From Actinomycetota bacterium (GTDB lineage: Bacteria; Actinomycetota; Thermoleophilia; Solirubrobacterales; Solirubrobacteraceae): a DNA stretch of 44,348 nt. The position numbers and the translations under genes were made by a program. The DNA is taken from contig JADDQZ010000046.1 in the NCBI GenBank assembly GCA_016781085.1, forward strand, positions 1 through 44,348. The letters run 5' to 3'. This document shows positions 2,536-39,775 of the stretch, piece after piece; the first letter of the stretch is position 1, and each line of letters starts with the position of its first letter. Under the pieces are notes generated by a model. It searched no databases. It was given only the letters and a program-made list of their open reading frames with translations, and was not told the DNA's origin.

Positions 2536-4245
2536 CTAGTCGAACGAGTCGGGATCGGCCTGCGGCAATCCCGGCGGCGCCGGCAGCTTCACAGGCCGCC
2601 CGCCCACGTCTTGACTACAGGAGTCGAGGCGATGGACCTTCACCTCGGGTCCCGGGCGCACGTACTCCTGCGGGTAGAACAAGTGCGTCGACCAGTCGAA
2701 GTGAAACGGGGGAGGAGTCGAGTTCGGGTTGTACGGCGAAGCCTGAAAGAGGACGCGCGACTCGCGTTCCAGGCGCCGGTAGTACGCCATCGCCGGGCCG
2801 ACGGCGTCTTGCAAGGCGCGTCCTTTGACGGTGCTCAAAGTCACCACGGTGCAGTAGCCCGCCTTGCGGTAGCGGTCGATCCGCGACGGTTGCAGCGCGA
2901 GAATGAAGCGCTGCGGCGTTCCCCCGGCGACCTGGGTGCGCGGTGGCGCGTTGAACCCCACCGTCAGGCGCTTGTTGAAGTAGCCACTCGGCACACCCGG
3001 CTCGACAACCACGCGCGCGTCGCGCGGCAGCGTGCGGAGCAAGTGCTTGCGCGCGAGGATCCGCGTGTCGTCGCGGCCCTGAAGCCGCACCGTGTGGGCA
3101 CTGGCTTGAAGCGGCTGCGCGATCGTCACGAGCACCAGTACGGCCAGTGCGACGGCACGCAAGGCTGGGCGGGCGGGCACGAGCTCCGCCGCCCGGGCGA
3201 TCGCCACGCCGCCGAGCAGCGCCAGCACGGGATAAGTCGGCATCAGCCAGCGGCCGAAGTGACGGTCGGCGGTGCACAAGTACAGGTACATCACGATCGG
3301 AAAGGCAGCGAGCAGCATCGCGCGGACACGGTCTCGACGCCCTGTCAGGATCAGCCCCGCTCCTGCAGCGAGCGCCGGCAGCACTCCGAAGCCCCAGCCG
3401 AGGCTGCCCACGTAAAACGTGAACGGGTTGCCGTCGCCTTGCCCGAGTTTGGGCAAGTTGGCGGCGGCGTTCTGCTCGCCGAGCTGGTCGAGCGCTTCTG
3501 AGAGCTCGAAGAAGAAGTACGGCGTCGTGACGAAGAAGGTGATCACGGTCACCGCCGCGCAGACGAGCAGGCCGGGTATGACGCGACGATCGCGGCGAAC
3601 ATGCAGCGCCGCCGCGATCAGCAGAGGGACGCCGACCAACCCCGCCGTGTACTTGAACCCGACAGCGAGGCCTACGGCGATGCCCGTGAGCACGTAGTAC
3701 CGCCAGCCCCCGTCCTCATGAGCCCGAATGGCCGCGTAGATGGCGACGACCACCGGCAACAGCACGCCCGTGTCGGTCAGGGCGAAGCGCGAATACGACA
3801 CGGTGAGAAACGAGAACGCGAGCAGCGCCGCCGCTACCGCTCCCGCCGCGGGACTCCAAAGCCGCCGGCCGACTTCAAAGGTGCCCGCCACCGCCGCCAT
3901 GCACAGCACGATGGCGATGACGCGACCGGTCTCGTAGGCGAACGACGGGTTGCGCTCGAGCACTGTGAAGAGCACCCCAGGATCGTCGAAGGGAACCGGT
4001 CCGCGGTCCCAGAACAACAGGGCGGCGTAGACGAGATAAGTGAAGGCCGACGGGTTCTCGAAGTACTCCGGATTGAGCCCGTCGCCGCCGAGCATCTCGA
4101 TCGCCCGGCTGGTGAAGTGCAGCGCCTCGTCGGAGTGGTAGACGTACGGAAGGCCATGGCTGACGTGGTGCAGGCGCAGCAGCGTGCCGGCGACAAGCGT
4201 CGCGGCGAGCAGGACATACGGAAACCATGTGCGTGGCACAGTCAT
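2536..4245 (-). CDS. GT39/ArnT-PMT-like membrane glycosyltransferase
   Basis: 569 aa, N-terminal 'HHVSHGLPYVYHSDEALHFTSRAIEML' acidic loop pattern, multiple TM segments, 'YYVLTGIAVGLAVGFKYTAGL'. Confidence 0.75.
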   Translation of the reverse strand: MTVPRTWFPYVLLAATLVAGTLLRLHHVSHGLPYVYHSDEALHFTSRAIEMLGGDGLNPEYFENPSAFTYLVYAALLFWDRGPVPFDDPGVLFTVLERNPSFAYETGRVIAIVLCMAAVAGTFEVGRRLWSPAAGAVAAALLAFSFLTVSYSRFALTDTGVLLPVVVAIYAAIRAHEDGGWRYYVLTGIAVGLAVGFKYTAGLVGVPLLIAAALHVRRDRRVIPGLLVCAAVTVITFFVTTPYFFFELSEALDQLGEQNAAANLPKLGQGDGNPFTFYVGSLGWGFGVLPALAAGAGLILTGRRDRVRAMLLAAFPIVMYLYLCTADRHFGRWLMPTYPVLALLGGVAIARAAELVPARPALRAVALAVLVLVTIAQPLQASAHTVRLQGRDDTRILARKHLLRTLPRDARVVVEPGVPSGYFNKRLTVGFNAPPRTQVAGGTPQRFILALQPSRIDRYRKAGYCTVVTLSTVKGRALQDAVGPAMAYYRRLERESRVLFQASPYNPNSTPPPFHFDWSTHLFYPQEYVRPGPEVKVHRLDSCSQDVGGRPVKLPAPPGLPQADPDSFD

Positions 4246-26203: not shown

Positions 26204-27328
26204 ATGAGCAACGCGTTGCAGGCTTCGCTGTTTGATGCGCCGCTGGTGTCGCCGCCCGCGTCGTCCAGGACTTCTCGCCTGCTCGACGTCCAGCGCATCT
26301 ACCTCGAACCGGCCGTGTCCGACTACCAGCGCGGCCGCGAGATCCTCGAGCGTTTCCCGGAGGCCGAGCGGATAGAAGTTCCGTCGCACTGGAAGATCGA
26401 CGGCTTGCACGGAAATCCCGGCAACGTCGAGGACTGGCTGCGCATCAAGCGCGAGCTCCTGGTGCTCGGAGTCAAGAAAGGCGTGTCTTTCCGACCTAAC
26501 GGTCGCAGCAGCGACTTCATCGCTCCCTCACACGCGAACGGCTGCGCGATGGCGTGCTCGTACTGCTACGTCCCGCGGCGCAAGGGCTACGCCAACCCGA
26601 TCTCGGCTTTCGTCAACATCGAGCAGATGCTGCGCGCCACCGAGCGCCACGTCGGCCGCCAAGGAGTCAAGCCGCAGCCCAACCAGTGCGATCCGCACGC
26701 GTGGGTGTATGACATCGGCGAGAACAGCGACTGTTCCGTCGACGCCGCTATTTCTGACAACGTCCGCGACATCGTCGCGCTGTTTCGGGATCTGCCGACG
26801 GCCAAGGCGTCTTTTGCCACCAAGCACGTCAATCGGGACTTGCTGTCATACGACCCCCAGGGCCGCACGCGCATCCGCTTCAGCCTGATGCCGGCGGCCG
26901 TGTCACGCCGGCTGGACGTCCGTACCGATCCGATCGCCACGCGCATCGCCGCGATCAACGACTTCGTGGCGGCCGGCTACGAGGTGCACGTCAACTTCAG
27001 CCCAGTCGTCGTCTACGACGGCTGGCTCGAGGACTGGCGCGAGCTGCTTGAAGCGCTCGACGACGGCATCAGCCCTGCGGCCAAGGAGCAGCTCAAGGCC
27101 GAAGTGATCTTCCTCACCCACAACGACCGCCTGCACGAGACCAATCTCGGCTGGCATCCGCGCGGCGAGGAGCTGCTGTGGCGGCCCGAGCTCCAAGAGC
27201 GCAAGGTGTCGCAGACCGGGGGTCACAACCTCCGCTACCGCCGCGGGATGAAGGGCAAGATGGTTACAGAGCTCAAGCAGCTCATCGGCGAGCGCCTGCC
27301 TTATTGCCAGATCCGCTACGCCTTTTAG
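26204..27328 (+). CDS. spore photoproduct lyase-like radical SAM protein
   Basis: 'RIYLEPAVSDYQRGREILERFPEAERIEV' and CAMACSYCYV (Cx3Cx2C). Confidence 0.85.
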   Translation: MSNALQASLFDAPLVSPPASSRTSRLLDVQRIYLEPAVSDYQRGREILERFPEAERIEVPSHWKIDGLHGNPGNVEDWLRIKRELLVLGVKKGVSFRPNGRSSDFIAPSHANGCAMACSYCYVPRRKGYANPISAFVNIEQMLRATERHVGRQGVKPQPNQCDPHAWVYDIGENSDCSVDAAISDNVRDIVALFRDLPTAKASFATKHVNRDLLSYDPQGRTRIRFSLMPAAVSRRLDVRTDPIATRIAAINDFVAAGYEVHVNFSPVVVYDGWLEDWRELLEALDDGISPAAKEQLKAEVIFLTHNDRLHETNLGWHPRGEELLWRPELQERKVSQTGGHNLRYRRGMKGKMVTELKQLIGERLPYCQIRYAF

Positions 27329-27612: not shown

Positions 27613-27700
27613 GGGAGCTCGGGTGCCACCGGGCTGAGAAGGGGGCTGAGGGGCCTCCGACCGCATGAACCTGTCCGGGTAATGCCGGCGAAGGAATTCC
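27613..27700 (+). promoter_or_regulatory. TPP (THI-box) riboswitch
   Basis: 'GGGAGCTCGGGTGCCACCGGGCTGAGA...GACCGCATGAACCTGTCCGGGTAATGCCGGCGAAGGAATTCC' matches the conserved THI element CGGGTGCC/GGCTGAGA/TGAACCTG-TCxGGxTAATxCCxGCGxAGGxA. Confidence 0.95.
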
Positions 27701-27702
27701 GG

Positions 27703-29166
27703 ATGCTTGACACCCCCACGACCGTAATAACGCTTGTCGCCGTTCTGGCGTTCTTCGCCTGGATCGGCGCCCGCGTCGGCCGCGATCGCGATCTGGAGGA
27801 GTTCACGGTCGCGCGCGGGACGCAGAGCGGCACCACGCTCGGCTTGTCTTTCTTCGCGTCCGGCGTTGGTGCGTGGATCCTCTTCGCTCCCCCGGAGATC
27901 GGTTCGTCGATCGGGATTGTCGGCGTCTTCGGTTACGCCATCGCGGCGACGGTGCCGCTGCTCGGACTCGTCCTGGTGGGTGGCCGGTTGCGCCGCGTCA
28001 TGCCGGCGGGCCACAGCCTCATCGACTTCACGCGCTTTCGTTTCGGGCGCACCTTCCACGCGTACGTGCTCGGGGTCACGGTCCTGTTCATGGTCGTCGC
28101 GTTGTGCGCGGAGTTCACCGCGGCCGGCGCCGTGCTCGCACGCCTGTCCAGCGCCGACCCGCGGCTGGGGATCATCGCGCTTGCCGTCGTCACCGCCGCG
28201 TACACGGCCTATGGAGGTCTACGTGCGTCACTGGTGACCGATCGCTGGCAGTCGTACATGTTGTTTGCGCTTCTCGTGGTCGTCGGTGGCGCTGCACTGC
28301 AGAACCTGCCGTCGCTTCCGGAGCAGGGCGCGCGTCCGCTGCGCGAGGTCAACGGCCTTGGCATTCAGGTCGCGCTCACTTTGATCATCGCCGTCACGGC
28401 GCCGAACCTCCTGCACAACGGCTACTGGCAGCGGGTGTGGGCGGCGCGCGACCAGCGCTCGCTCGTGAGGGGAGCTGTGATTGGAGCCGCGACCCGGTTT
28501 CCGGTGGTGTTTCTCGCCGGACTCGTCGGCCTGCTGGCCGCCGAGGCGGCGGTGGAGCTCGGCACGCCGCCGGTGCCGTTCTTCGCGCTGCTGGGCGACC
28601 CTCCGGCGTGGGTGCTCGTCGCGGCGCTGCTGTTGACGGTCGCCTTGTCCGCATCGACTGTCGACACGCTCCAGAACGGGCTGGCCGCTGCGGTGGTGAC
28701 TGAGCGTCCCGACATGGGGCTCATCGGCGCGCGGATCGCGACGGTCCTCTTGACCATCCCGGCGGTCGTCGTGGCCTTCCAGGGCTTCTCGGTCCTGCGC
28801 CTGTTCCTGATCGCGGATCTGCTCGCTGCCGCGACGGTGGTTCCGGCGCTGCTCGGGTTGTGGCCGCGGACAACGTCAGCGGGCGCAATCGCCGGCGCTG
28901 TTGCCGGCCTGGTGGGCGCCGTCGCCTACGGCCTCGTAACCCTGGGTTCGCTTTCGGCCGCGCTCGCGCTTGCTACCTTCGCCGAGGGACCGGCGCTCGG
29001 ACCGTTCGCGAGCGCGCTTGCCGCTTCTGCGCTCGTCACCGTTGTCGTCTCGCTTGTGGGTGGGCGCGATTCGGATCTGTCGGGCCTCGAGCGGGTCGAA
29101 GGTCTGGACGACCGCGAGCTGGCCGTCGGCGAACCCGGGGAGCCTGCGCGCCAAGCCGCCGTATGA
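27703..29166 (+). CDS. SSS-family sodium:solute symporter under TPP riboswitch (candidate thiamin/precursor transporter)
   Basis: 'YTAYGGLRASLVTDRWQSYMLF' and 'VALSASTVDTLQNGLAA' SSS signatures; ATG 27703 preferred because the ORF-track start 27682 lies inside the aptamer. Confidence 0.88.
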   Translation: MLDTPTTVITLVAVLAFFAWIGARVGRDRDLEEFTVARGTQSGTTLGLSFFASGVGAWILFAPPEIGSSIGIVGVFGYAIAATVPLLGLVLVGGRLRRVMPAGHSLIDFTRFRFGRTFHAYVLGVTVLFMVVALCAEFTAAGAVLARLSSADPRLGIIALAVVTAAYTAYGGLRASLVTDRWQSYMLFALLVVVGGAALQNLPSLPEQGARPLREVNGLGIQVALTLIIAVTAPNLLHNGYWQRVWAARDQRSLVRGAVIGAATRFPVVFLAGLVGLLAAEAAVELGTPPVPFFALLGDPPAWVLVAALLLTVALSASTVDTLQNGLAAAVVTERPDMGLIGARIATVLLTIPAVVVAFQGFSVLRLFLIADLLAAATVVPALLGLWPRTTSAGAIAGAVAGLVGAVAYGLVTLGSLSAALALATFAEGPALGPFASALAASALVTVVVSLVGGRDSDLSGLERVEGLDDRELAVGEPGEPARQAAV

Positions 29167-30308
29167 ATGAGCTAGACGCTCGCATCCAGTCCTTCATCGA
29201 GGCGCCCGGCGACCCCGGTCCGGGCGCCCTGGAGGCCCGCTTCAACGCGCTGGCGCTGGAGCTGTTCGCCGACCAATACGAGCGCAACGCGGCCTACCGG
29301 CGCTTCTGTCGCGCTCGGCGTGCCGAGCCTGGGCGCCTACGATCGTGGTGGGAGATCCCCGCAGTTCCGCTGAAAGCCTTCAAGGAGCTGACGCTGGCGT
29401 GCGAGCCGCCGGAAACCGCTGCCGCGGTGTTCATGACCAGCGGAAGCACCGATCCGGCGCGACGCGGACGTAATTACCATCCGCACCTGCGGCTGTACGA
29501 CGCTTCACTGCGAGCGAACTTCGGTGAGTGGTTCCTCCCGGACCGCGAGCGAATGCGCCTGCTCGTGCTCAATCAGCCAGCCGACCAGCAGCCCAACTCG
29601 TCGCTGGCGTACTTCCTGACACGGCTGTTCGACTTCTATGGCGCCTCGGGAAGCGGGTTCTTCATCGGCGAGTCAGGCTTGCACCTCGACTCCCTCGTCG
29701 ACGAGTTGCGCCGAGCCGAAGAAGGCGGCGAGGCGGTTGGGCTGCTGGGCACGTCCTTCGCCTATGTTCACCTTCTGGACGCGCTCCGCGCTGCCGGCCT
29801 GAGCTTTCGCTTGCCGGAGGGAAGCCGGCTGCTCGACACGGGCGGCTTCAAGGGACGCTCGCGCGAGGTGTCTTCCGCGGAACTGCTCGCGCTGTTCGAT
29901 GAGCATCTGGGCATCCCGGCACCTCTCGCAGTCAACTACTACGGGATGACGGAAATCAGCACGCAGTACTACGACCACTCGCTGCGCAGCTTCGTCCAGG
30001 GCTCGACCGCGGAGCCGCGTCACAAGACGGTTCCGCATTGGGCGCGGATCGCGATAATCGATCCTGGAACACGCGAACCGGTGGGGCCCGGAGAGCGCGG
30101 GCTGATCGTGCACTTCGACCTGGCCAATCGGGGCTCTTGCCTCGCCGTGATGGCGGAGGACATCGGGCATGCCGTTCGTGCCGGGACGGCCGGGCCGCAG
30201 GACCCGGGCGGCTTCGTGTTGCACGGACGCGCCGCCGGTACGGAAGCCCGCGGCTGCTCGATCACGCTCGACGAGCTGCTTGCCGCAAACGCGGGGGCGC
30301 GCGCATGA
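29163..30308 (+). CDS. LuxE-like acyl-protein synthetase / adenylating enzyme
   Basis: 'IPAVPLKAFKELTLACEPPETAAAVFMTSGSTDPARRGRNYHPHLRLYDASL' and 'PLAVNYYGMTEISTQYYDHSL'; ATGA overlap with the SSS gene. Confidence 0.9.
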   Translation: MNELDARIQSFIEAPGDPGPGALEARFNALALELFADQYERNAAYRRFCRARRAEPGRLRSWWEIPAVPLKAFKELTLACEPPETAAAVFMTSGSTDPARRGRNYHPHLRLYDASLRANFGEWFLPDRERMRLLVLNQPADQQPNSSLAYFLTRLFDFYGASGSGFFIGESGLHLDSLVDELRRAEEGGEAVGLLGTSFAYVHLLDALRAAGLSFRLPEGSRLLDTGGFKGRSREVSSAELLALFDEHLGIPAPLAVNYYGMTEISTQYYDHSLRSFVQGSTAEPRHKTVPHWARIAIIDPGTREPVGPGERGLIVHFDLANRGSCLAVMAEDIGHAVRAGTAGPQDPGGFVLHGRAAGTEARGCSITLDELLAANAGARA

Positions 30309-31813
30309 GCTCGGTGGTCGTAGCGACAGAGCCGACCCGTGACCTTCAGACCATCGATGGGTTCTTCCTGCCGCAGCTCAGCGAGGAGGAGCTCGCAGAG
30401 CTCGACTGGACGACGCAGAGCTTCGCGGGAGCGGAGCTGCGAATGCCGGTCGTGACGCCGGCTCTCGTCCAAGTGGTCGCTGAGCGGCTGGTCGCCGCTC
30501 AGGCGGAGTTCCTCGCCGATCGTCCTGTGATGGAGATCGCCGACGTGGTCGGCCGCGCGATGAGCCGCTGGTACGACGCGGAATATGCGCCGCGCCGGCT
30601 CGCTGAGGCCCTACTGCCAGAAATCACGGGATACGCCCCGGAGATGGTCCGGCGCGGCCTGCGCCCCTACATGAAGACATTCCGTCGCGATCGCCTGTTG
30701 CGGTTCCTGGCGCAGGATTTCGAGAACCCGTTGGTCCTTGACGGCTTCCAGCCCAATCGCGCGGGCGGTCGCTCCCGCGCGTTCGGCCCGCGCCTCACGA
30801 CGCAGATCTTCGCCGGCAACGTTCCCGGGCTGCCCGCCTGGAACATGATCTGCGCGCTTCTCGTCAAGTCCGCGACACTTGGCAAGTCCTCTTCGCAGGA
30901 ACCGCTGTTCGGCGTCCTGGTCGCGGCGAGCATCGCTGAAGAGGACCCCGGACTCGGCCGTTGCCTCGCCGTCTTGAATTGGCGTGGCGGTGAGGATGAC
31001 GTCGAACGTGCGGCCTTTGAGCGCGCCGACGCCGTGACCGCGACCGGAGGCGTCCGTGCTGTGGAGAGCATCGCCCGACGGGTTCCCGTCGGCGTTCCGT
31101 TCGTCGCATATGGCCACAAGGTGTCGTTCGGTGTGATCGGTCACGAGGCTCTGGCGCTGAACCGCTACGCCGACACGGCCCGGCGTGTCGCCCAGGACGT
31201 CTCCCAGTACGACCAGCAGGGATGCCTCTCGCCGCACGCGGTCTTCGTCGAGCGCAACGGCGCCGTCGACCCGCGGACCTTTGCGGCAGCGCTGGCAGCG
31301 GAGATGGCCCGGTTCGAGCGGGACCGGCCGCGCGCGGTGATCTCCCTCGAGGAGAGCGTCGCCATAGAGGACGTGCGGTCTGGGTACGAATTCCGCGCAT
31401 ACGAGGATCCCGACGCGACGCACGTCCATGCGAGCGCCGACGGCACGGCGTGGACGGTCGTCTACGAGGAACGTCCGGAGCGGTTCGAGCTCTCGCCGCT
31501 CAACCGCGTCGTCCGCGTTCACCCCATCGACGACATCGCCGAGATCGAACGCCGCTTGGCTCCGTTGCGAAGACATCTGCAGACCGCGGGCATCGCCTGC
31601 GCGCCCGACCGCGCCGGTTCCTGGGCCGACCTGCTCGGTCGCTGCGGCGTCGATCGCGTATGTGCGGTGGGGCAGATGCCGCAGCCGGCAGCCGGCTGGC
31701 ACCACGACGGGCGAGGGAGCCTCGCGTCCCTCGTCCGCTGGGTCGACATCGAAGGCGCAGCAGAGACGGAGTTCGAGCGCTACGACCCCGAGTGGACCGC
31801 TCCACGCCCATGA
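30305..31813 (+). CDS. LuxC-like acyl-CoA reductase
   Basis: 'QIFAGNVPGLPAWNMICALLVKSATLGKSSSQEPLFG' and catalytic-Cys-like 'SQYDQQGCLSPHAVFVE'; ATGA overlap with the LuxE-like gene. Confidence 0.9.
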   Translation: MSSVVVATEPTRDLQTIDGFFLPQLSEEELAELDWTTQSFAGAELRMPVVTPALVQVVAERLVAAQAEFLADRPVMEIADVVGRAMSRWYDAEYAPRRLAEALLPEITGYAPEMVRRGLRPYMKTFRRDRLLRFLAQDFENPLVLDGFQPNRAGGRSRAFGPRLTTQIFAGNVPGLPAWNMICALLVKSATLGKSSSQEPLFGVLVAASIAEEDPGLGRCLAVLNWRGGEDDVERAAFERADAVTATGGVRAVESIARRVPVGVPFVAYGHKVSFGVIGHEALALNRYADTARRVAQDVSQYDQQGCLSPHAVFVERNGAVDPRTFAAALAAEMARFERDRPRAVISLEESVAIEDVRSGYEFRAYEDPDATHVHASADGTAWTVVYEERPERFELSPLNRVVRVHPIDDIAEIERRLAPLRRHLQTAGIACAPDRAGSWADLLGRCGVDRVCAVGQMPQPAAGWHHDGRGSLASLVRWVDIEGAAETEFERYDPEWTAPRP

Positions 31814-32643
31814 GCGGGACGCAAGTTCCGCCACCCGGTCCTACCGCGGCACGCCCGCTCCCGCTCGGGTCCAGCGACATGCTCGCCGATCGCGTGGCCC
31901 TCGTCACAGGGGCGAGCAGAGGGATCGGAGCGACCATCGCCCGAGCGCTGGCCGCGCACGGCGCCACCGTGGCGGTCAACTACCTGAGTCGGCACGACCG
32001 CGCGCAGGAGGTCGTGTCGGAGATCCGTGCCGGCGGCGGTCGCGCCGAAGCCTTCGCGGCCGACGTCACCGACGCGGCAGCGGTTTCCGCCATGGCGGCG
32101 AGGGTCAGTGAGCGCTTCGGTCCGGTCAACCTCCTGGTCAACAACGCGCTCCGCGAGTACCGCTTTGACCCGCTCGCCCGCCGCACCGCCTGGGACATCC
32201 CCTGGGAGCATTACGAGCGCCAGTTCGAGGGCAGCCTCGGCGGGGCATTCAACGCTTGCCGTGCCGTCATGCCCGGCATGCGCGACGCCGGCGACGGGCG
32301 CATCGTCAACCTCGTCACCGACCTCATCGAGCGACCCAGCATCGGCTACCACGATTACACGACTGCCAAGGCGGCGCTTCTCGGTTTCTCGCGCAACCTC
32401 GCCGCTGACCTCGGCCCGTTCGGCATCACGGTCAACTGCGTCGCTCCTGGGTTGGTCCACCCGACGGATGCGAGCAACCGGACCACCGACCAGCAACGCG
32501 ACGAGCTCGAAGTGGTAACGCCGCTCCGCCGTCTCGCCAGTCCCGAGGACGTCGCCGGGGCGATTCTCTACTTCGCCAGTCCTTGGTCGTCGTTCGTGAC
32601 GGGGGCCTGCCTGTTCGTCGACGGTGGGCTCGTGATGCGCTGA
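31810..32643 (+). CDS. SDR oxidoreductase (FabG-like)
   Basis: 'RVALVTGASRGIGATIARALAAHGATVAVNY', YTTAK, C-terminal 'FVTGACLFVDGGLVMR'; ATGA overlap with the LuxC-like gene. Confidence 0.9.
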   Translation: MSGTQVPPPGPTAARPLPLGSSDMLADRVALVTGASRGIGATIARALAAHGATVAVNYLSRHDRAQEVVSEIRAGGGRAEAFAADVTDAAAVSAMAARVSERFGPVNLLVNNALREYRFDPLARRTAWDIPWEHYERQFEGSLGGAFNACRAVMPGMRDAGDGRIVNLVTDLIERPSIGYHDYTTAKAALLGFSRNLAADLGPFGITVNCVAPGLVHPTDASNRTTDQQRDELEVVTPLRRLASPEDVAGAILYFASPWSSFVTGACLFVDGGLVMR

Positions 32644-33828: not shown

Positions 33829-33909
33829 AGCATACCCCAGCGACCGCCGAGCGCAACCGCCGATCGGCGCTGCTCGGCGTCCCGGGGTCGAACCGGCGCC
33901 GGGTATGCT

Positions 33910-34050
33910 GCTGGCCGTAAGCGCCACGACCCGAGGAACCCGATGCGAATTCGGGACGGTCGCGCCACTGTGACCGCCCTTCGAGGCGGAAGTCAGGAAC
34001 TCGGTCGGCGCGTTGTCCGTCTACGGGAACGCGTTATTCCCAGGGAGGTG
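33910..34050 (+). promoter_or_regulatory. cobalamin riboswitch upstream of cobG
   Basis: 'AAGCGCCACGACCCGAGGAACCCGATGCGAATTCGGGACGGTCGCGCCACTGTGACCGCCCTTCGAGGCGGAAGTCAGGAACTCGGTC'; 3' boundary approximate. Confidence 0.9.
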
Positions 34051-34055
34051 TCGGG

Positions 34056-34109
34056 ATGGGCAGGAAGCTCTCCCGTGCGATCGTCATGAGACGCGCGAGA
34101 TGCAGTTGA
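34056..34109 (+). CDS. putative 17-aa leader peptide MGRKLSRAIVMRRARCS
   Basis: ATG at 34056 with GGGAGG at 34043-34048 (7 nt spacing); stop TGA 34107-34109 overlaps the cobG start at 34100. Confidence 0.45.
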   Translation: MGRKLSRAIVMRRARCS

Positions 34110-35392
34110 TCGAGGATCGTTGTCCCGGGGTGCTGCGGCTTCATGTCGCTGCCGACGGTTGCCTCGCCCGTGTGCGGCTGCCTGGCGGGCGCATCACCGC
34201 GGACGGACTGCGCGCCATCGCGGACGTGGCGGGGCTGGGCAATGGCCTCGTTGAGCTCACTTCGCGTGCCAGCGTGCAGATCCGTGGCTTGCGAGACGGT
34301 GATCGAGCGGCGGCGGCCGATCGCCTGTCAGAGGTCGGTCTGCTGCCGTCGCCGTCGCACGAACGGGTGCGCAACATCATGGCGAGCCCGCTCGGCGGCC
34401 GGGACGTGACTGCGCTGCTGCGCACGGACGAACTCGTCGACGCGCTCGACCGCAGACTGTGCGCGCTTCCTCGCCTGGCGGCGCTTCCCGGGCGTTTTCT
34501 TTTTGCGGTGGATGACGGCAGTGGTGCGCTGCGGCAGGACACCGGCGACGTCACACTGCGCGCGGAAGCAGACGACGCAGGAGAAGTCGCTCTGCGCCTG
34601 CATCTGGCGGGGGCACCGACGACGATCGCCGCTTCGCCGCGGGCGGCCGCCGAGCTTGCGCTAGCGGCAGCGCACGCGTTCTTGACCATGCTCGCCGAAC
34701 GGCCGGTGACAGGGAGCCGACCGGCCTGGCGCATCGCCGACCTGCCGGCGGCCGACGTGGAGCGTCTGGCTCGGCGGCTCGGCGGCGACATGGCCCACCC
34801 GCCCGCCGGTGAGCCAGACGACGTTGAGGACAGCATGCGCCGACACCGACACGGAACGACGATGGCGCCCGGCGTCGTCGAGCAAGTCGACGGCCGCCGC
34901 GCCGTCACGGCCCTCGTTCCGCTCGGGCGCACGGCGGGCGAAACGATCGCCGCGCTGGCCGAACTCGCCGACGACGAGCAGGGCTCCGTCCGCTTCTCGC
35001 CGTCGCGGACGGTCAGCGTCGTTGACGTCGTCCCGTCGCGGGCGTCTCGCGTCGCCGCTCGCCTCGCCGGCATGGGCCTCGTGATCGACGCCGATTCCGG
35101 CTGGCACGGTCTCAGCGCATGCGCCGGCCTGGGCGCATGCGAGAGCGCGCTTGTGGACGTCCGCGCCACTGCAGAACGTCGCGCCGCGGCGCGCGACCAT
35201 CTCGTGCCGGCGCGAGCCGGCTCGGAGCACTGGTCGGCGTGCGAGCGGGGATGTGGCCGCCCTGCGCGCACGGAGCGCACCGTCACGGCCACGGGCGAGG
35301 GCCTTGAAGTCGCCTGGGGAGGGGAGCGCTTCGGCGTCGGCTCGGTCGACGCCGCGCTCGCCTTGCTGGAACGTGAGGACGCACGCCGGTGA
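34100..35392 (+). CDS. cobG: precorrin-3B synthase CobG
   Basis: Sulfite/nitrite-reductase-like repeats ('LVELTSRASVQIRGL', 'SVRFSPSRTVSVVDV') and 'SACAGLGACESAL...SACERGCGRP' Fe-S/siroheme Cys pattern. Confidence 0.85.
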   Translation: MQLIEDRCPGVLRLHVAADGCLARVRLPGGRITADGLRAIADVAGLGNGLVELTSRASVQIRGLRDGDRAAAADRLSEVGLLPSPSHERVRNIMASPLGGRDVTALLRTDELVDALDRRLCALPRLAALPGRFLFAVDDGSGALRQDTGDVTLRAEADDAGEVALRLHLAGAPTTIAASPRAAAELALAAAHAFLTMLAERPVTGSRPAWRIADLPAADVERLARRLGGDMAHPPAGEPDDVEDSMRRHRHGTTMAPGVVEQVDGRRAVTALVPLGRTAGETIAALAELADDEQGSVRFSPSRTVSVVDVVPSRASRVAARLAGMGLVIDADSGWHGLSACAGLGACESALVDVRATAERRAAARDHLVPARAGSEHWSACERGCGRPARTERTVTATGEGLEVAWGGERFGVGSVDAALALLEREDARR

Positions 35393-36018
35393 GCCACGAC
35401 TACGTCCGCGACGGTCAGGAGATCTACCGGCGGTCGTTCGCGATCATCCGCGCGGAAGCCGATCTCGCGGGCGTCGAGCCCGTTCTCGAGCGCACGATCG
35501 TGCGAATGATCCACGCCTGCGGCATGGTCGACCTGCCGCAAGACGTCGTCGCGTCCGCAGGCTTCGGTGCGGCAGCCGAAGTCGCGATCCGCAACGGCGC
35601 ACCGATCCTCTGCGACACCAGCATGGTCGCGTCGGGGATCACGCGATCGCGTCTGCCGGCGGGCAACGATGTCGTCTGCACCTTGAACGACCCGGGCATC
35701 GCTCAGCTTGCCGCGCGACTCGAGACGACGCGCACGGCAGCCGCCATCGAGCTTTGGAAGCCGCGCTTGGAGGGCGCTGTGGTCGTGATCGGCAATGCCC
35801 CCACTGCGCTCTTTCACCTGCTTGACATCGTCGCCGACGGCGCGGCGCGGCCTGCTGCGGTCATCGGCGTGCCGGTCGGCTTCGTGGGCGCCGCGGAGTC
35901 CAAGGTCGCGCTCTCCCAGAACGCGAGCAGCCTGGAGCACCTGGTCGTACTCGGTCGCCGCGGCGGCAGCGCGATCGCAGCGGCGGCCGTCAACGCCCTG
36001 GCGAGCATGGCCGAATGA
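35389..36018 (+). CDS. cobH: precorrin-8X methylmutase
   Basis: 'VVASAGFGAAAEVAIRNGAPILCDTSMVASGITRSRLPAGNDVVCTLNDP' and 'VIGVPVGFVGAAESK'. Confidence 0.93.
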   Translation: MSHDYVRDGQEIYRRSFAIIRAEADLAGVEPVLERTIVRMIHACGMVDLPQDVVASAGFGAAAEVAIRNGAPILCDTSMVASGITRSRLPAGNDVVCTLNDPGIAQLAARLETTRTAAAIELWKPRLEGAVVVIGNAPTALFHLLDIVADGAARPAAVIGVPVGFVGAAESKVALSQNASSLEHLVVLGRRGGSAIAAAAVNALASMAE

Positions 36019-37535
36019 GCGCCGACGGCGGACGTGTGGGCCGCCTCTTCGGGGTCGGCGTGGGACCCGGAGACCCGGAGCTTGTGACACTCAAGGCCCG
36101 GCGGCTGATCGGCGCCGCCGACGTGGTGGCCTATACGGGGGCTCGGCACGGGCACAGCGTCGCGCGGGCCATCGCCGAGCCTCATCTGTCTGCGGACGTC
36201 ATCGAAGTCGCGTTGACGTACCCGGTCACCACCGGCACGACGGACCACCCCGGGGGGTACGAAGGCGCAATCGCGGAGTTCTACGACGAGTGTGCGGCGA
36301 CGCTCTCCGCCCATCTCAACGCCGGCCGAGACGTCGTCGTGCTCTGCGAGGGCGACCCGTTCTTCTACGGCTCGTACATGTACCTGCACGATCGCCTGGC
36401 CTCACGCTACGCGACCGAAGTGGTCCCCGGGATCACGTCGTTCAGCGCTGCCGCGGCCACCGCGGGAACGCCGCTCGTCAGGCGCGACGACATCCTTACG
36501 ATCCTTCCGGGCACGCTGCCCGAGGATCTGCTCACGGCGCGTCTGCGCTCGAGCGACGCCGCGGTGGTGATGAAGCTCGGCCGGACGTTCGAGCGCGTGC
36601 GCCAGGCAGCGCAGGAGGCCGGTGTCGCAGAGCGGGCGATCTACGTCGAGCGCGCGAGCTCCAGCGCAGAGCGATCGTCGCCGTTGAGCGAAGTCGACGG
36701 AGACGTTCCCTACATGTCCCTGGTCCTCGTCCCGGGGAAGCCCGGGACAGCGGCAGGGGGATCGCCCGAGGAGCGCCGACGGACGGGCAGCGTCACCGTC
36801 GTGGGGCTCGGACCGGCAGGGCGCCAGTGGCTCACGCCTGAGGCAGAGGCCGAGCTCGCCAATGCCGATGCCCTGATCGGCTACAAGACCTATCTGGACC
36901 GCGTGCCGCAGCGTACGGGCCAGCAACGGCATCCCAGCGACAACCGCGTCGAGATCGACCGCGCGCGGCACGCGCTCGAACTGGCGGTAACCGGGTCCCG
37001 CGTCGCCGTCGTGTCCTCGGGCGATCCGGGAATCTTCGCGATGGCTTCCGCCGTGCTCGAAGCGGTCGAGGCGGCGCCCCCGCCTGTGTCGGACGTGCCC
37101 GTTCGGGTCGTGCCGGGTCTTTCCGCGATGCAAGCCGCCGCTGCACGCGTGGGCGCCCCGCTCGGGCATGACTTCTGCGTCATCTCTCTTTCCGACATCT
37201 TGAAGCCGTGGGAGATCATCGAGCGCCGGCTCGCGGCGGCAGCCGAGGCCGACATGGTGCTGGCGCTCTACAACCCTGCGTCTCGCACCCGGCGAGAGCA
37301 GTTGCGAAGCGGTGTCGAAGTCTTGCGCCGGCATCGTGCGCCTGACACGCCGGTGGTCGTCGCCCGGGCGGTCGGCTCCGATCAGGAGGCCATCACGGTC
37401 TCCTCGCTGGCCGACCTCGATCTCGACGTGATCGACATGCGGACCTTGCTGATCGTGGGCGCCTCCACGACCCGCGTCGTGGCGCGTGACGGTGTCCCGC
37501 CGCTGGTCTACACGCCGCGCCGATACCCGCTCTGA
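36015..37535 (+). CDS. cobIJ: bifunctional precorrin-2 C20-methyltransferase / precorrin-3B C17-methyltransferase (CobI-CobJ)
   Basis: CobI half 'GVGVGPGDPELVTLKARRLI..VLCEGDPFFYGSYMYL', CobJ half 'VTVVGLGPAGRQWLTPEAEAELANADALIGYKTYLD..VVSSGDPGIFAMA'. Confidence 0.93.
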   Translation: MSADGGRVGRLFGVGVGPGDPELVTLKARRLIGAADVVAYTGARHGHSVARAIAEPHLSADVIEVALTYPVTTGTTDHPGGYEGAIAEFYDECAATLSAHLNAGRDVVVLCEGDPFFYGSYMYLHDRLASRYATEVVPGITSFSAAAATAGTPLVRRDDILTILPGTLPEDLLTARLRSSDAAVVMKLGRTFERVRQAAQEAGVAERAIYVERASSSAERSSPLSEVDGDVPYMSLVLVPGKPGTAAGGSPEERRRTGSVTVVGLGPAGRQWLTPEAEAELANADALIGYKTYLDRVPQRTGQQRHPSDNRVEIDRARHALELAVTGSRVAVVSSGDPGIFAMASAVLEAVEAAPPPVSDVPVRVVPGLSAMQAAAARVGAPLGHDFCVISLSDILKPWEIIERRLAAAAEADMVLALYNPASRTRREQLRSGVEVLRRHRAPDTPVVVARAVGSDQEAITVSSLADLDLDVIDMRTLLIVGASTTRVVARDGVPPLVYTPRRYPL

Positions 37536-38260
37536 ACCCAATCCAGGGCGGCAGCGACGGTCGTCACGGTCGCCACGTCGGGACGCGCTGGACGACGGAC
37601 GATCACCACCGGAACGCTCCGCGCTTGCGCTGCCGCGAGCTTGGCCTCGGTCTGCGAGCCCCCACTGTCCTTGGTCACGAGCACGTCGAGGCCATGGGCG
37701 TCGAAGAGCGCGAGTTCCCGCTCGAGCGTGTACGGACCGCGATCGAGCACCAGCAGGTGGCGGGGCGGCAGCGCAACCTCCGGCGGGTCGACGCAGCGGA
37801 TCAGAAACCAGGTTCGCTTGTCGTGCGCGAACGCTCCCAGCCCCTGCCGGCCGCTGGTCACAAACGCGCGCGATCCGATTTCGGGCACCGCGACAGCGGC
37901 TTGGCCGAGGTCGTCCACCCAGTGCCAGTGGTCACCCTCGACCGGCGACCAGCCCGGCCGCTCCACCCGCAGCAACGGAACAGCGACGGCAGCGCAGGCT
38001 GCCGCCGCCGACACCGACATGCGCTCGGCAAAGGGGTGGGTCGCGTCGACGACCGCGGCTATCCCCTGCTCGTCCAGCCAGCGCGCCAGTGCTTCCGGTC
38101 CCCCGAAGCCGCCGACACGCACTTCGCCGGCGGGCAGGCGCGGGCGCGACACGCGACCGGCGAGCGATGACACCACTGGCACGCCCGCGCGGTCGAGTTC
38201 GCCGGCGAGCTCGCGCGCTTCGCCCGTGCCGCCGAGGATGAGGACGCGCGGAGAACTCAT
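37508..38260 (-). CDS. cobK: precorrin-6A reductase CobK/CbiJ
   Basis: 'VLILGGTGEARELAGELDRAGVPVVSSLAGRV', 'AVVDATHPFAERMS', 'VLVTKDSGGSQTEAKLAAA'. Confidence 0.92.
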   Translation of the reverse strand: MSSPRVLILGGTGEARELAGELDRAGVPVVSSLAGRVSRPRLPAGEVRVGGFGGPEALARWLDEQGIAAVVDATHPFAERMSVSAAAACAAVAVPLLRVERPGWSPVEGDHWHWVDDLGQAAVAVPEIGSRAFVTSGRQGLGAFAHDKRTWFLIRCVDPPEVALPPRHLLVLDRGPYTLERELALFDAHGLDVLVTKDSGGSQTEAKLAAAQARSVPVVIVRRPARPDVATVTTVAAALDWVQSGYRRGV

Positions 38261-39021
38261 CTCCGTCTTCGGCGCAGCAGGTAGATGTCGAAGATCCAGC
38301 CTTTGCGCCGCTTGGCGTCCTCGCGCTCGGCCAGGATGGCAGACGAGACGTCGGCAAGCGCTCCAGAGATCAGCAGCTCGTCAGGAGTCCCCAGATACGC
38401 GCCCCAGTAGATGTCGAGGTCGTCGGCCGGGATGCGGGCGAACGCGGCTCCGGGATCGAGCATGACGACGACATCGTCGACGTCCTCGGGCATCCCGTTG
38501 GCCAGAAGGCGCGCCGGCGTGATCTGCACGGCGCTGCCGACGCGGTTCAAGGAGATGCGATGACGTGCGGTCAGCGCGTGCACGCTGCTGACGCCGGGAA
38601 TCACCTCGAACTCGAGGGCGAAGGTCGCCCGCCGTCGGATCTCCTCGACGACCGTAAGGGTGCTCTCGTACAGGGAGGGATCTCCCCACACGAGAAAGGC
38701 CCCGCACTCACCATCGCCGAGTTGATCACCGACGGCGGCTTCCCAGAGCTCGACGCGCGCCGTGCGCCAGCGGCCGACTTCGCCGCCGTAGTCCGTGGCA
38801 TCGCGCCACGGCCGCGGTGGGTCGGAAAGCTCAACGGTGCGAAACGGGCGGTCGCCGCGATGGCTCTTGACCAGTTGACGCCGGTGGGAGACGAGCTCCT
38901 GCGGACCGTCCTCCTTCGTCACGACGAAGAGGACATCGAAGGTGCCGAGCGCGCGGGCGGCCTGGAGCGTCAGGTGATCGGGATCGCCGGCGCCGATGCC
39001 GATCAGCAACAGCCGCCGCAC
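38257..39021 (-). CDS. cobF: precorrin-6A synthase (deacetylating) CobF
   Basis: 'LLIGIGAGDPDHLTLQAARALGTFDVLFVVTKEDGPQELVSHRR' and 'FLVWGDPSLYESTLTVVEEI'. Confidence 0.92.
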   Translation of the reverse strand: MRRLLLIGIGAGDPDHLTLQAARALGTFDVLFVVTKEDGPQELVSHRRQLVKSHRGDRPFRTVELSDPPRPWRDATDYGGEVGRWRTARVELWEAAVGDQLGDGECGAFLVWGDPSLYESTLTVVEEIRRRATFALEFEVIPGVSSVHALTARHRISLNRVGSAVQITPARLLANGMPEDVDDVVVMLDPGAAFARIPADDLDIYWGAYLGTPDELLISGALADVSSAILAEREDAKRRKGWIFDIYLLRRRRR

Positions 39022-39022
39022 G

Positions 39023-39775
39023 TCAGCCGCCCGCCACGCGGTCGCGCTCGCTCGAATAGAGATGGCTCGGGCGGAAGTTCCGCGTGGCGAGGGCGGGTCC
39101 GACGAGGATGGTCGCGGTGCGGCTGATGCCGGCGTCGCGGACCTGGCCGGCTATGTCGGCGAGTGTCCCGCGCAGCACGCGCTCGTCCGGCCAGCTCGCG
39201 CGCGCCACCACGGCGGCGGGGCAGTCGGCGCCGTAGTGCAAAGCGACGACGCCGACAATCTCCTCGATCGCCTGGGTGCCGAGGTGGATCACCAGCGTGG
39301 CGCCGTGTGCGGCGAGCGAGGCAAGATCCTCGCCGGCCGGCATGGCGGTCGATCGGCGGCTGTAGCGGGTCAGGATCACGGTCTGCGCCACTTCCGGCAG
39401 AGTCAGCTCGCATCCCAGCGCGGCGGCAGACGCGGCGAACGCGGGCACGCCGGGTGTGACGTCCCAGGCGATGCCGTGCTCGTCGAGACGGCGTATCTGT
39501 TCGGCGACGGCGCTGTAGATCGATAGATCGCCGGAGTGCAGCCGCGCGACGTCGACGTCGCGATCCCGGGCGGCGACGCATTCGGCGATGATCTCGTCGA
39601 GGTCGAGGTGCTGGGTGTCGACAAGCCGCGCTCCGGCCGGTGCATGTTCGAGGATCTCCTGCGGCACCAGCGCGCCGGCATAGAGGCAGACCGGCGATGC
39701 CGCGATGATCCGCTGGGCGCGCAACGTCAGCAGGTCGGGTGCTCCCGGGCCGGCGCCGATGAAGTGGACCTTCAC
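39023..39775 (-). CDS. cobM: precorrin-4 C11-methyltransferase
   Basis: 'MKVHFIGAGPGAPDLLTLRAQRIIAASPVCLYAGALVPQEILEHAP' and 'VARLHSGDLSIYSAVAEQIRRLD'. Confidence 0.93.
   Translation of the reverse strand: MKVHFIGAGPGAPDLLTLRAQRIIAASPVCLYAGALVPQEILEHAPAGARLVDTQHLDLDEIIAECVAARDRDVDVARLHSGDLSIYSAVAEQIRRLDEHGIAWDVTPGVPAFAASAAALGCELTLPEVAQTVILTRYSRRSTAMPAGEDLASLAAHGATLVIHLGTQAIEEIVGVVALHYGADCPAAVVARASWPDERVLRGTLADIAGQVRDAGISRTATILVGPALATRNFRPSHLYSSERDRVAGG

Follow-up and report, generated by a model that had tools for sequence, protein, structure and literature searches.

A thiamin pyrophosphate riboswitch-controlled LuxE-LuxC-SDR cassette suggests an undescribed way of salvaging an oxidised fragment of vitamin B1

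An operon under a thiamin pyrophosphate (TPP) riboswitch in a member of the Solirubrobacteraceae (Actinomycetota bacterium, GenBank assembly GCA_016781085.1, contig JADDQZ010000046.1, positions 1 to 44,348, the whole of this stretch being the window analysed here) points to an undescribed route by which bacteria may rescue an oxidised piece of vitamin B1. The riboswitch is followed, all on the forward strand, by four intact open reading frames encoding a sodium:solute symporter of the SSS family, a LuxE-like ligase, a LuxC-like reductase and a short-chain dehydrogenase/reductase (SDR), which probably, as judged from their sequences, form a TPP-repressed module that reduces some thiamin-related carboxylate to an alcohol. 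The proposed chain from acid through acyl-AMP, acyl-cysteine and aldehyde to alcohol is based on the known chemistry of the LuxE, LuxC and SDR families: the symporter would import a thiamin-related carboxylic acid, the LuxE-like enzyme would form the acyl-AMP and hand the acyl group to its own Cys365, the LuxC-like enzyme would accept it on Cys307 and reduce the thioester to the aldehyde with NAD(P)H, and the SDR would turn the aldehyde into an alcohol used in thiamin synthesis. We infer the direction of the reaction, the OFF logic of the riboswitch and the identity of the substrate. To our knowledge, no thiamin salvage enzyme reduces a carboxylate, a reaction absent from the known steps of thiamin salvage, and none of LuxE, LuxC and SDR counts as a known thiamin gene.

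The link to thiamin is carried by relatives of the cassette, which were found by protein similarity alone, the riboswitch not being used as a criterion. When 85,462 species genomes were scanned with the LuxE-like protein as query, 12 loci emerged, in Rubrobacter, Blastococcus, Geodermatophilus, Modestobacter, Arthrobacter and Brevibacterium; one further cassette (genome G468, locus L065) came from a sample of Geodermatophilaceae. On plasmids, of which 72,556 were searched by tblastn, LuxC at 37% identity or more and LuxE at 40% or more occur together in 27 records, with Azospirillum, Pantoea, Pseudomonas, Lactiplantibacillus, Levilactobacillus, Priestia and Niallia as hosts of the plasmid cassettes. 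A TPP riboswitch precedes every one of the 26 cassettes that have upstream sequence (the window, L010-L020, L065 and 13 plasmid cassettes, L073-L081 and L082-L085), in approximately 14 genera of three phyla, some of these cassettes being closely related, so that they do not represent 26 independent events; L021 is not counted, as its record ends before its promoter. Several of the relatives' riboswitches score below the Rfam gathering threshold (43.8-53 bits), yet they occupy the same position and align over the full length or the core of the model. Of 10 LuxC or LuxE relatives outside the clade, none has a TPP riboswitch, even when matches with E-values as high as 1 to a model derived from the positive cassettes are admitted; eight are plasmid loci whose LuxC shows no more than 32% identity (L086-L093), and the other two, L056 and L057, are loci with a distant LuxE in genomes that have no TPP match anywhere. 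The preliminary description of this DNA, which proposed a TPP-riboswitch-controlled operon for carboxylate reduction or salvage, is supported by these comparisons, homologous cassettes lacking the riboswitch having been sought and none found among the 26. The distant LuxE matches in G132 and G165 (264 bits), which stand alone, do not have the C-terminal RGCS motif and belong to genomes without a TPP match, served as outgroup.

The genome to which the window belongs (G000, 89% complete) contains five TPP sites in 2.29 Mb, and the placement of one before the cassette by chance is therefore negligible; the remaining sites precede ThiOSG, ThiC, an ATP-binding cassette (ABC) transporter of the THI5 type, and TenA. 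The transporter of the cassette varies among relatives while the enzymes stay constant: it may be an SSS symporter (the type found in actinobacterial cassettes), an ABC transporter with an NMT1/THI5-like binding protein, encoded between luxC and the SDR gene (Azospirillum and Priestia), an NCS2 nucleobase permease, either with its gene overlapping luxE (lactobacilli) or together with ThiW upstream of luxE (Niallia), or absent from the neighbourhood (Pantoea, L010 and L018). The riboswitch lies directly before luxE both where the operon has no transporter (L010, L018 and Pantoea L074, L080, L084 and L085) and where the transporter lies downstream (Azospirillum and Priestia), which indicates that the enzymes are the regulated, thiamin-linked unit and that their control is not an artefact of the transporter. 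In Arthrobacter, a ThiM-ThiE-ThiD operon, itself under TPP control, lies next to the cassette in divergent orientation. Beside both of these lies a TPP-controlled transporter of the major facilitator superfamily (L015 321-1763, L016 251-1660 and L017 330-1727). The Niallia plasmid (L079) has two tandem TPP aptamers (3697-3993; 85.0 and 72.9 bits) before its ThiW-NCS2-LuxE-LuxC-SDR genes, and after each aptamer come a hairpin resembling a terminator and a run of T.

LuxE, LuxC and SDR are all present wherever a record contains the whole cassette, and they are co-inherited: their pairwise identity matrices correlate at 0.97, 0.94 and 0.95, and none of 5000 label permutations in a Mantel test gave a value as high. 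The LuxE/PaaK-like acyl-adenylate ligase of the window (29163-30308, 381 aa; Pfam LuxE, PF04443, 63.5 bits) has the motifs TSGST and NYYGMTE, and its predicted acyl acceptor Cys365 (codon 30255-30257) shows no variation among 13 actinobacterial sequences or in a cross-phylum alignment; the AMP-binding motifs are likewise kept in all complete copies aligned. The LuxC-like acyl-thioester reductase (30305-31813, 502 aa; Pfam LuxC, PF05893, 316.6 bits) has the predicted catalytic Cys307 (codon 31223-31225), invariant in all complete copies aligned. The SDR (31810-32643, 277 aa; Pfam adh_short_C2, 191 bits), for which the aldehyde-to-alcohol step is proposed, contains TGASRGIG and Y183-x3-K187, and the motifs TGxxRGIG and YxxxK are conserved in the aligned cassettes. 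The only sequence relatives of LuxE and LuxC in the PDB belong to the LuxC-LuxE complex 7xc6 (LuxE with 7xc6_E, E = 3.3e-23; LuxC with 7xc6_A, E = 1.2e-28), part of the LuxC-LuxE(-LuxD) fatty acid reductase of luminous bacteria, which resembles the cassette in its adjacent ligase and reductase genes, conserved acyl-carrying cysteines and acid-to-aldehyde chemistry. The cassette differs from it in having a TPP riboswitch, an SDR as third enzyme, a dedicated transporter and no adjacent luciferase genes, and in falling far short of the NCBIfam cut-offs for the long-chain equivalogs (LuxC NF052251, 96.6 of 750 bits; LuxE NF052244, 48.5 of 550 bits). A luciferase domain was found in none of the 10 neighbouring window proteins scanned, in agreement with the earlier statement that luxA and luxB are not alongside. 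In fold, the structure model of LuxE is nearest to PaaK-type ligases, several of which have been solved with aromatic acids; a likeness to these aryl-acid AMP ligases and to carboxylic acid reductases, namely AMP-forming activation of a small aromatic acid, is suggested by the model, whereas here the probable acyl acceptors are cysteines of the proteins, with LuxC as a separate reductase, in place of CoA or a carrier domain.

The TPP aptamer (RF00059, 27601-27713, forward strand) scores 63.1 bits against a gathering threshold of 54.3 (E = 3.4e-10) and matches the full model, positions 1-105. Plain minimum free energy folding of the leader revealed no excess stability (z 0.37), and since such folding is uninformative here, it is the covariance model, together with conservation among the relatives, that supports assignment of the riboswitch. 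The preliminary description was correct as to the presence of the aptamer and the joining of the four genes by three ATGA overlaps of 4 nt each (29163-29166, 30305-30308 and 31810-31813), and the Pfam families agree with those it had named; the start of the aptamer is 12 nt earlier than it gave. Its family and place for the SSS symporter (27703-29166, 487 aa; Pfam SSF, 40.3 bits; 55-64% identity to the SSS symporters of nine related cassettes) also stand, but not its start at 27682, as the most likely start codon is ATG 27703, just past the aptamer core, where the initial MLD, MLG or MVG is conserved among relatives. The symporter is the probable importer of the substrate; a fold search with its model returned only generic SSS transporters. 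The sequence AGGAA (27692-27696) in the conserved 3' segment of the aptamer is a likely Shine-Dalgarno sequence, 11 nt from its A to ATG 27703, and a conserved AGG(G/A)A precedes the start codon by 11-14 nt both here and at the nine actinobacterial loci that were checked and have the aptamer directly ahead of the SSS gene. This spacing suggests a translational OFF switch, in which the TPP-bound aptamer would hide its own Shine-Dalgarno sequence at high TPP and thereby turn off all four translationally coupled genes.

Two explanations would detach the enzymes from thiamin salvage, and both are very improbable. One is that the riboswitch serves the transporter only, LuxE-LuxC-SDR being an unrelated reductase of fatty acids or other carboxylates that rides along: long-chain fatty acids are the substrates with which LuxE and LuxC are chiefly associated, as in their nearest solved structures, and TPP-controlled SSS transporters are known on their own (PMC11452348), but this arrangement is hard to reconcile with riboswitches directly before luxE where the transporter is absent or downstream, with enzymes that stay constant while transporters change, or with scores so far from the long-chain equivalogs. 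The other, about equally improbable, is that the module operates in reverse, oxidising a thiamin-derived alcohol to an acid. Steps catalysed by SDR and LuxC are chemically reversible in principle, but the chemistry of an ATP-dependent ligase favours activation of the acid, TPP riboswitches normally repress genes of thiamin synthesis or import whereas disposal of an excess needs the opposite logic, and the operon shares its regulon with ThiC, ThiOSG, TenA and THI5-type uptake in the window genome.

If the module is reductive, our tentative first choice of substrate is 4-amino-2-methylpyrimidine-5-carboxylate, the carboxylate of hydroxymethylpyrimidine (HMP), whose reduction would yield HMP for use by ThiD. 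HMP-carboxylate fits all of the genomes because ThiD is universal (13 of the 13 cassette genomes) and because a pyrimidine is a fitting cargo for nucleobase permeases and THI5-type transporters; with these NCS2 permeases and NMT1/THI5-type binding proteins, the genomes that lack ThiM, the weak matches to thiamin pyrophosphokinase (TPK) and the PaaK-like fold of LuxE, a pyrimidine acid fits best. Several observations weigh against it: the models of LuxE and of the SSS symporter are of modest confidence (pLDDT 77.8 and 66.5, respectively); the best match of the NMT1/THI5-type proteins is to the SsuA sulfonate family, whose cut-off they do not reach; ThiC is commoner in those Geodermatophilaceae that carry the cassette (3 of 6, versus 7 of 109; p 0.008); and the protein at the head of the Niallia operon is ThiW (TIGR02359, 175 bits), named for thiazole transport, which favours a thiazole acid. 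Such an acid, 4-methylthiazole-5-acetate, is a known breakdown product of thiamin, and its reduction to hydroxyethylthiazole (HET), to be phosphorylated by ThiM, is an unlikely alternative function for the same module, consistent also with the occurrence of ThiM in 9 of 12 cassette genomes and with its position adjoining the cassette in Arthrobacter, though along with ThiE and ThiD. HET would be unusable by the known route in the window genome (where the single match to the HK family is ThiD itself), G398 and G407, in which ThiM was not found, an absence that rests on draft genomes and to that extent also counts against the pyrimidine; NCS2 nucleobase permeases, moreover, are odd carriers for a thiazole. 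Slightly less likely still is thiamin acetic acid, to which soil bacteria reportedly oxidise thiamin (Neal, around 1970): its direct reduction to thiamin would restore the whole vitamin by one pathway and would fit TPP control, but a convincing TPK is present in none of the 13 cassette genomes (two have no match and eleven have short matches of 31-40 bits in long frames), other thiamin kinases not having been searched, and none of the exchanged transporters is known to carry thiamin. Between HMP-carboxylate and thiamin acetic acid, the evidence tends to favour the former.

Other thiamin genes contribute little to the choice of substrate. The window genome possesses ThiC, ThiO-ThiS-ThiG, ThiE, TenA and the THI5-type ABC transporter in addition to ThiD. 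ThiG, found in 9 of 12 cassette genomes, does not discriminate between the substrates. ThiC is found in 4 of the 12 (one of them a fragment), and its absence from the other 8 was considered as a pointer to pyrimidine salvage and dropped, as 105 of 115 Geodermatophilaceae have no ThiC regardless; the comparison with thiC that had been proposed earlier could thus be made, and was uninformative, because absence of ThiC is the norm of the family with or without the cassette. The TPK match of the window genome (G000:C29, L094), the only one scanned, is a SteA-like protein, hence no genuine TPK is claimed. This SteA-like protein carries a TPK-like catalytic stretch that triggers matches to the TPK family, a trap for annotation of TPK in Actinobacteria.

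The LuxE-LuxC-SDR cassettes span Actinomycetota, Pseudomonadota and Bacillota, but are rare wherever they were counted: 2 clear orthologues among 398 genomes of a phylum sample, 6 among 115 Geodermatophilaceae, 2 among 394 in the family of one Arthrobacter, and 1 among 232 (the window itself) in the order of the window. No LuxE carried by a phage was found. Identical accessions for the cassette proteins on plasmids of Lactiplantibacillus plantarum (L077 1624-6321) and Levilactobacillus brevis (L082 1441-6138) point to recent intergeneric transfer. On the plasmid of Pseudomonas silvicola (L081 5707-9281), the TPP riboswitch is intact and luxE and luxC are split into several frames, by decay or by sequencing error. 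A further 24 plasmid LuxC records, at no more than 32% identity, are clearly separate from the cassette group. Streptomyces plasmids have different LuxE-LuxC pairs without a TPP riboswitch, beside a GNAT acetyltransferase (L089 1424-5148) and beside a DUF692 protein (L093 1403-3981), which are separate carboxylate-reductase systems.

In its combination of TPP control, a transporter and salvage enzymes, the cassette resembles the established TPP-riboswitch salvage operons (ThiM-ThiE-ThiD, TenA, ThiXYZ/ThiY, CytX and ThiV), the first of which is its neighbour in Arthrobacter. Oxidised fragments of thiamin are breakdown products in animals and soil. By analogy, the window's symporter may be compared with ThiV of SAR11, an SSS transporter under a TPP riboswitch that is the likely HMP importer of those bacteria (PMC11452348). 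The B1 vitamers listed in the open literature are HMP, AmMP, FAMP, HET and cHET, and do not include the candidate acids (PMC10881298). No paper joining a TPP riboswitch with LuxE and LuxC, or discussing the pyrimidine acid, was found in the open-licence literature, an earlier description elsewhere being possible; the main text of a 2013 regulon survey mentions no LuxE, SSS or reductase. Possibly, and a shade more tentatively than the substrate itself is proposed, the cassettes constitute a mobile B1 pathway in three phyla, in which a two-protein LuxE-LuxC carboxylate reductase and an SDR, served by exchangeable importers, would recover HMP from its acid, and communities of soil, plants and fermented food would exchange the pyrimidine carboxylate as a genuine B1 vitamer. 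If so, oxidised fragments of thiamin would be usable vitamers, predictions of B1 auxotrophy and vitamin exchange from genomes would change, and a whole pathway would have been hidden by misannotation, as the cassette genes are currently annotated as bioluminescence, fatty-acid or acyl-CoA proteins.

Scans for promoters and terminators gave results at chance level, and PADLOC gave nothing of note. The operon is adjoined by a gene for a radical SAM protein resembling spore photoproduct lyase (26204-27328; PF20903, 129 bits), in an actinobacterial genome. Downstream, an adenosylcobalamin riboswitch (33909-34054, forward strand, 54.3 bits) lies ahead of a cobalamin cluster (34013-39775) encoding NIR_SIR, CbiC, tetrapyrrole methylases and CbiJ, with a CbtA cobalt transporter encoded on the opposite strand.

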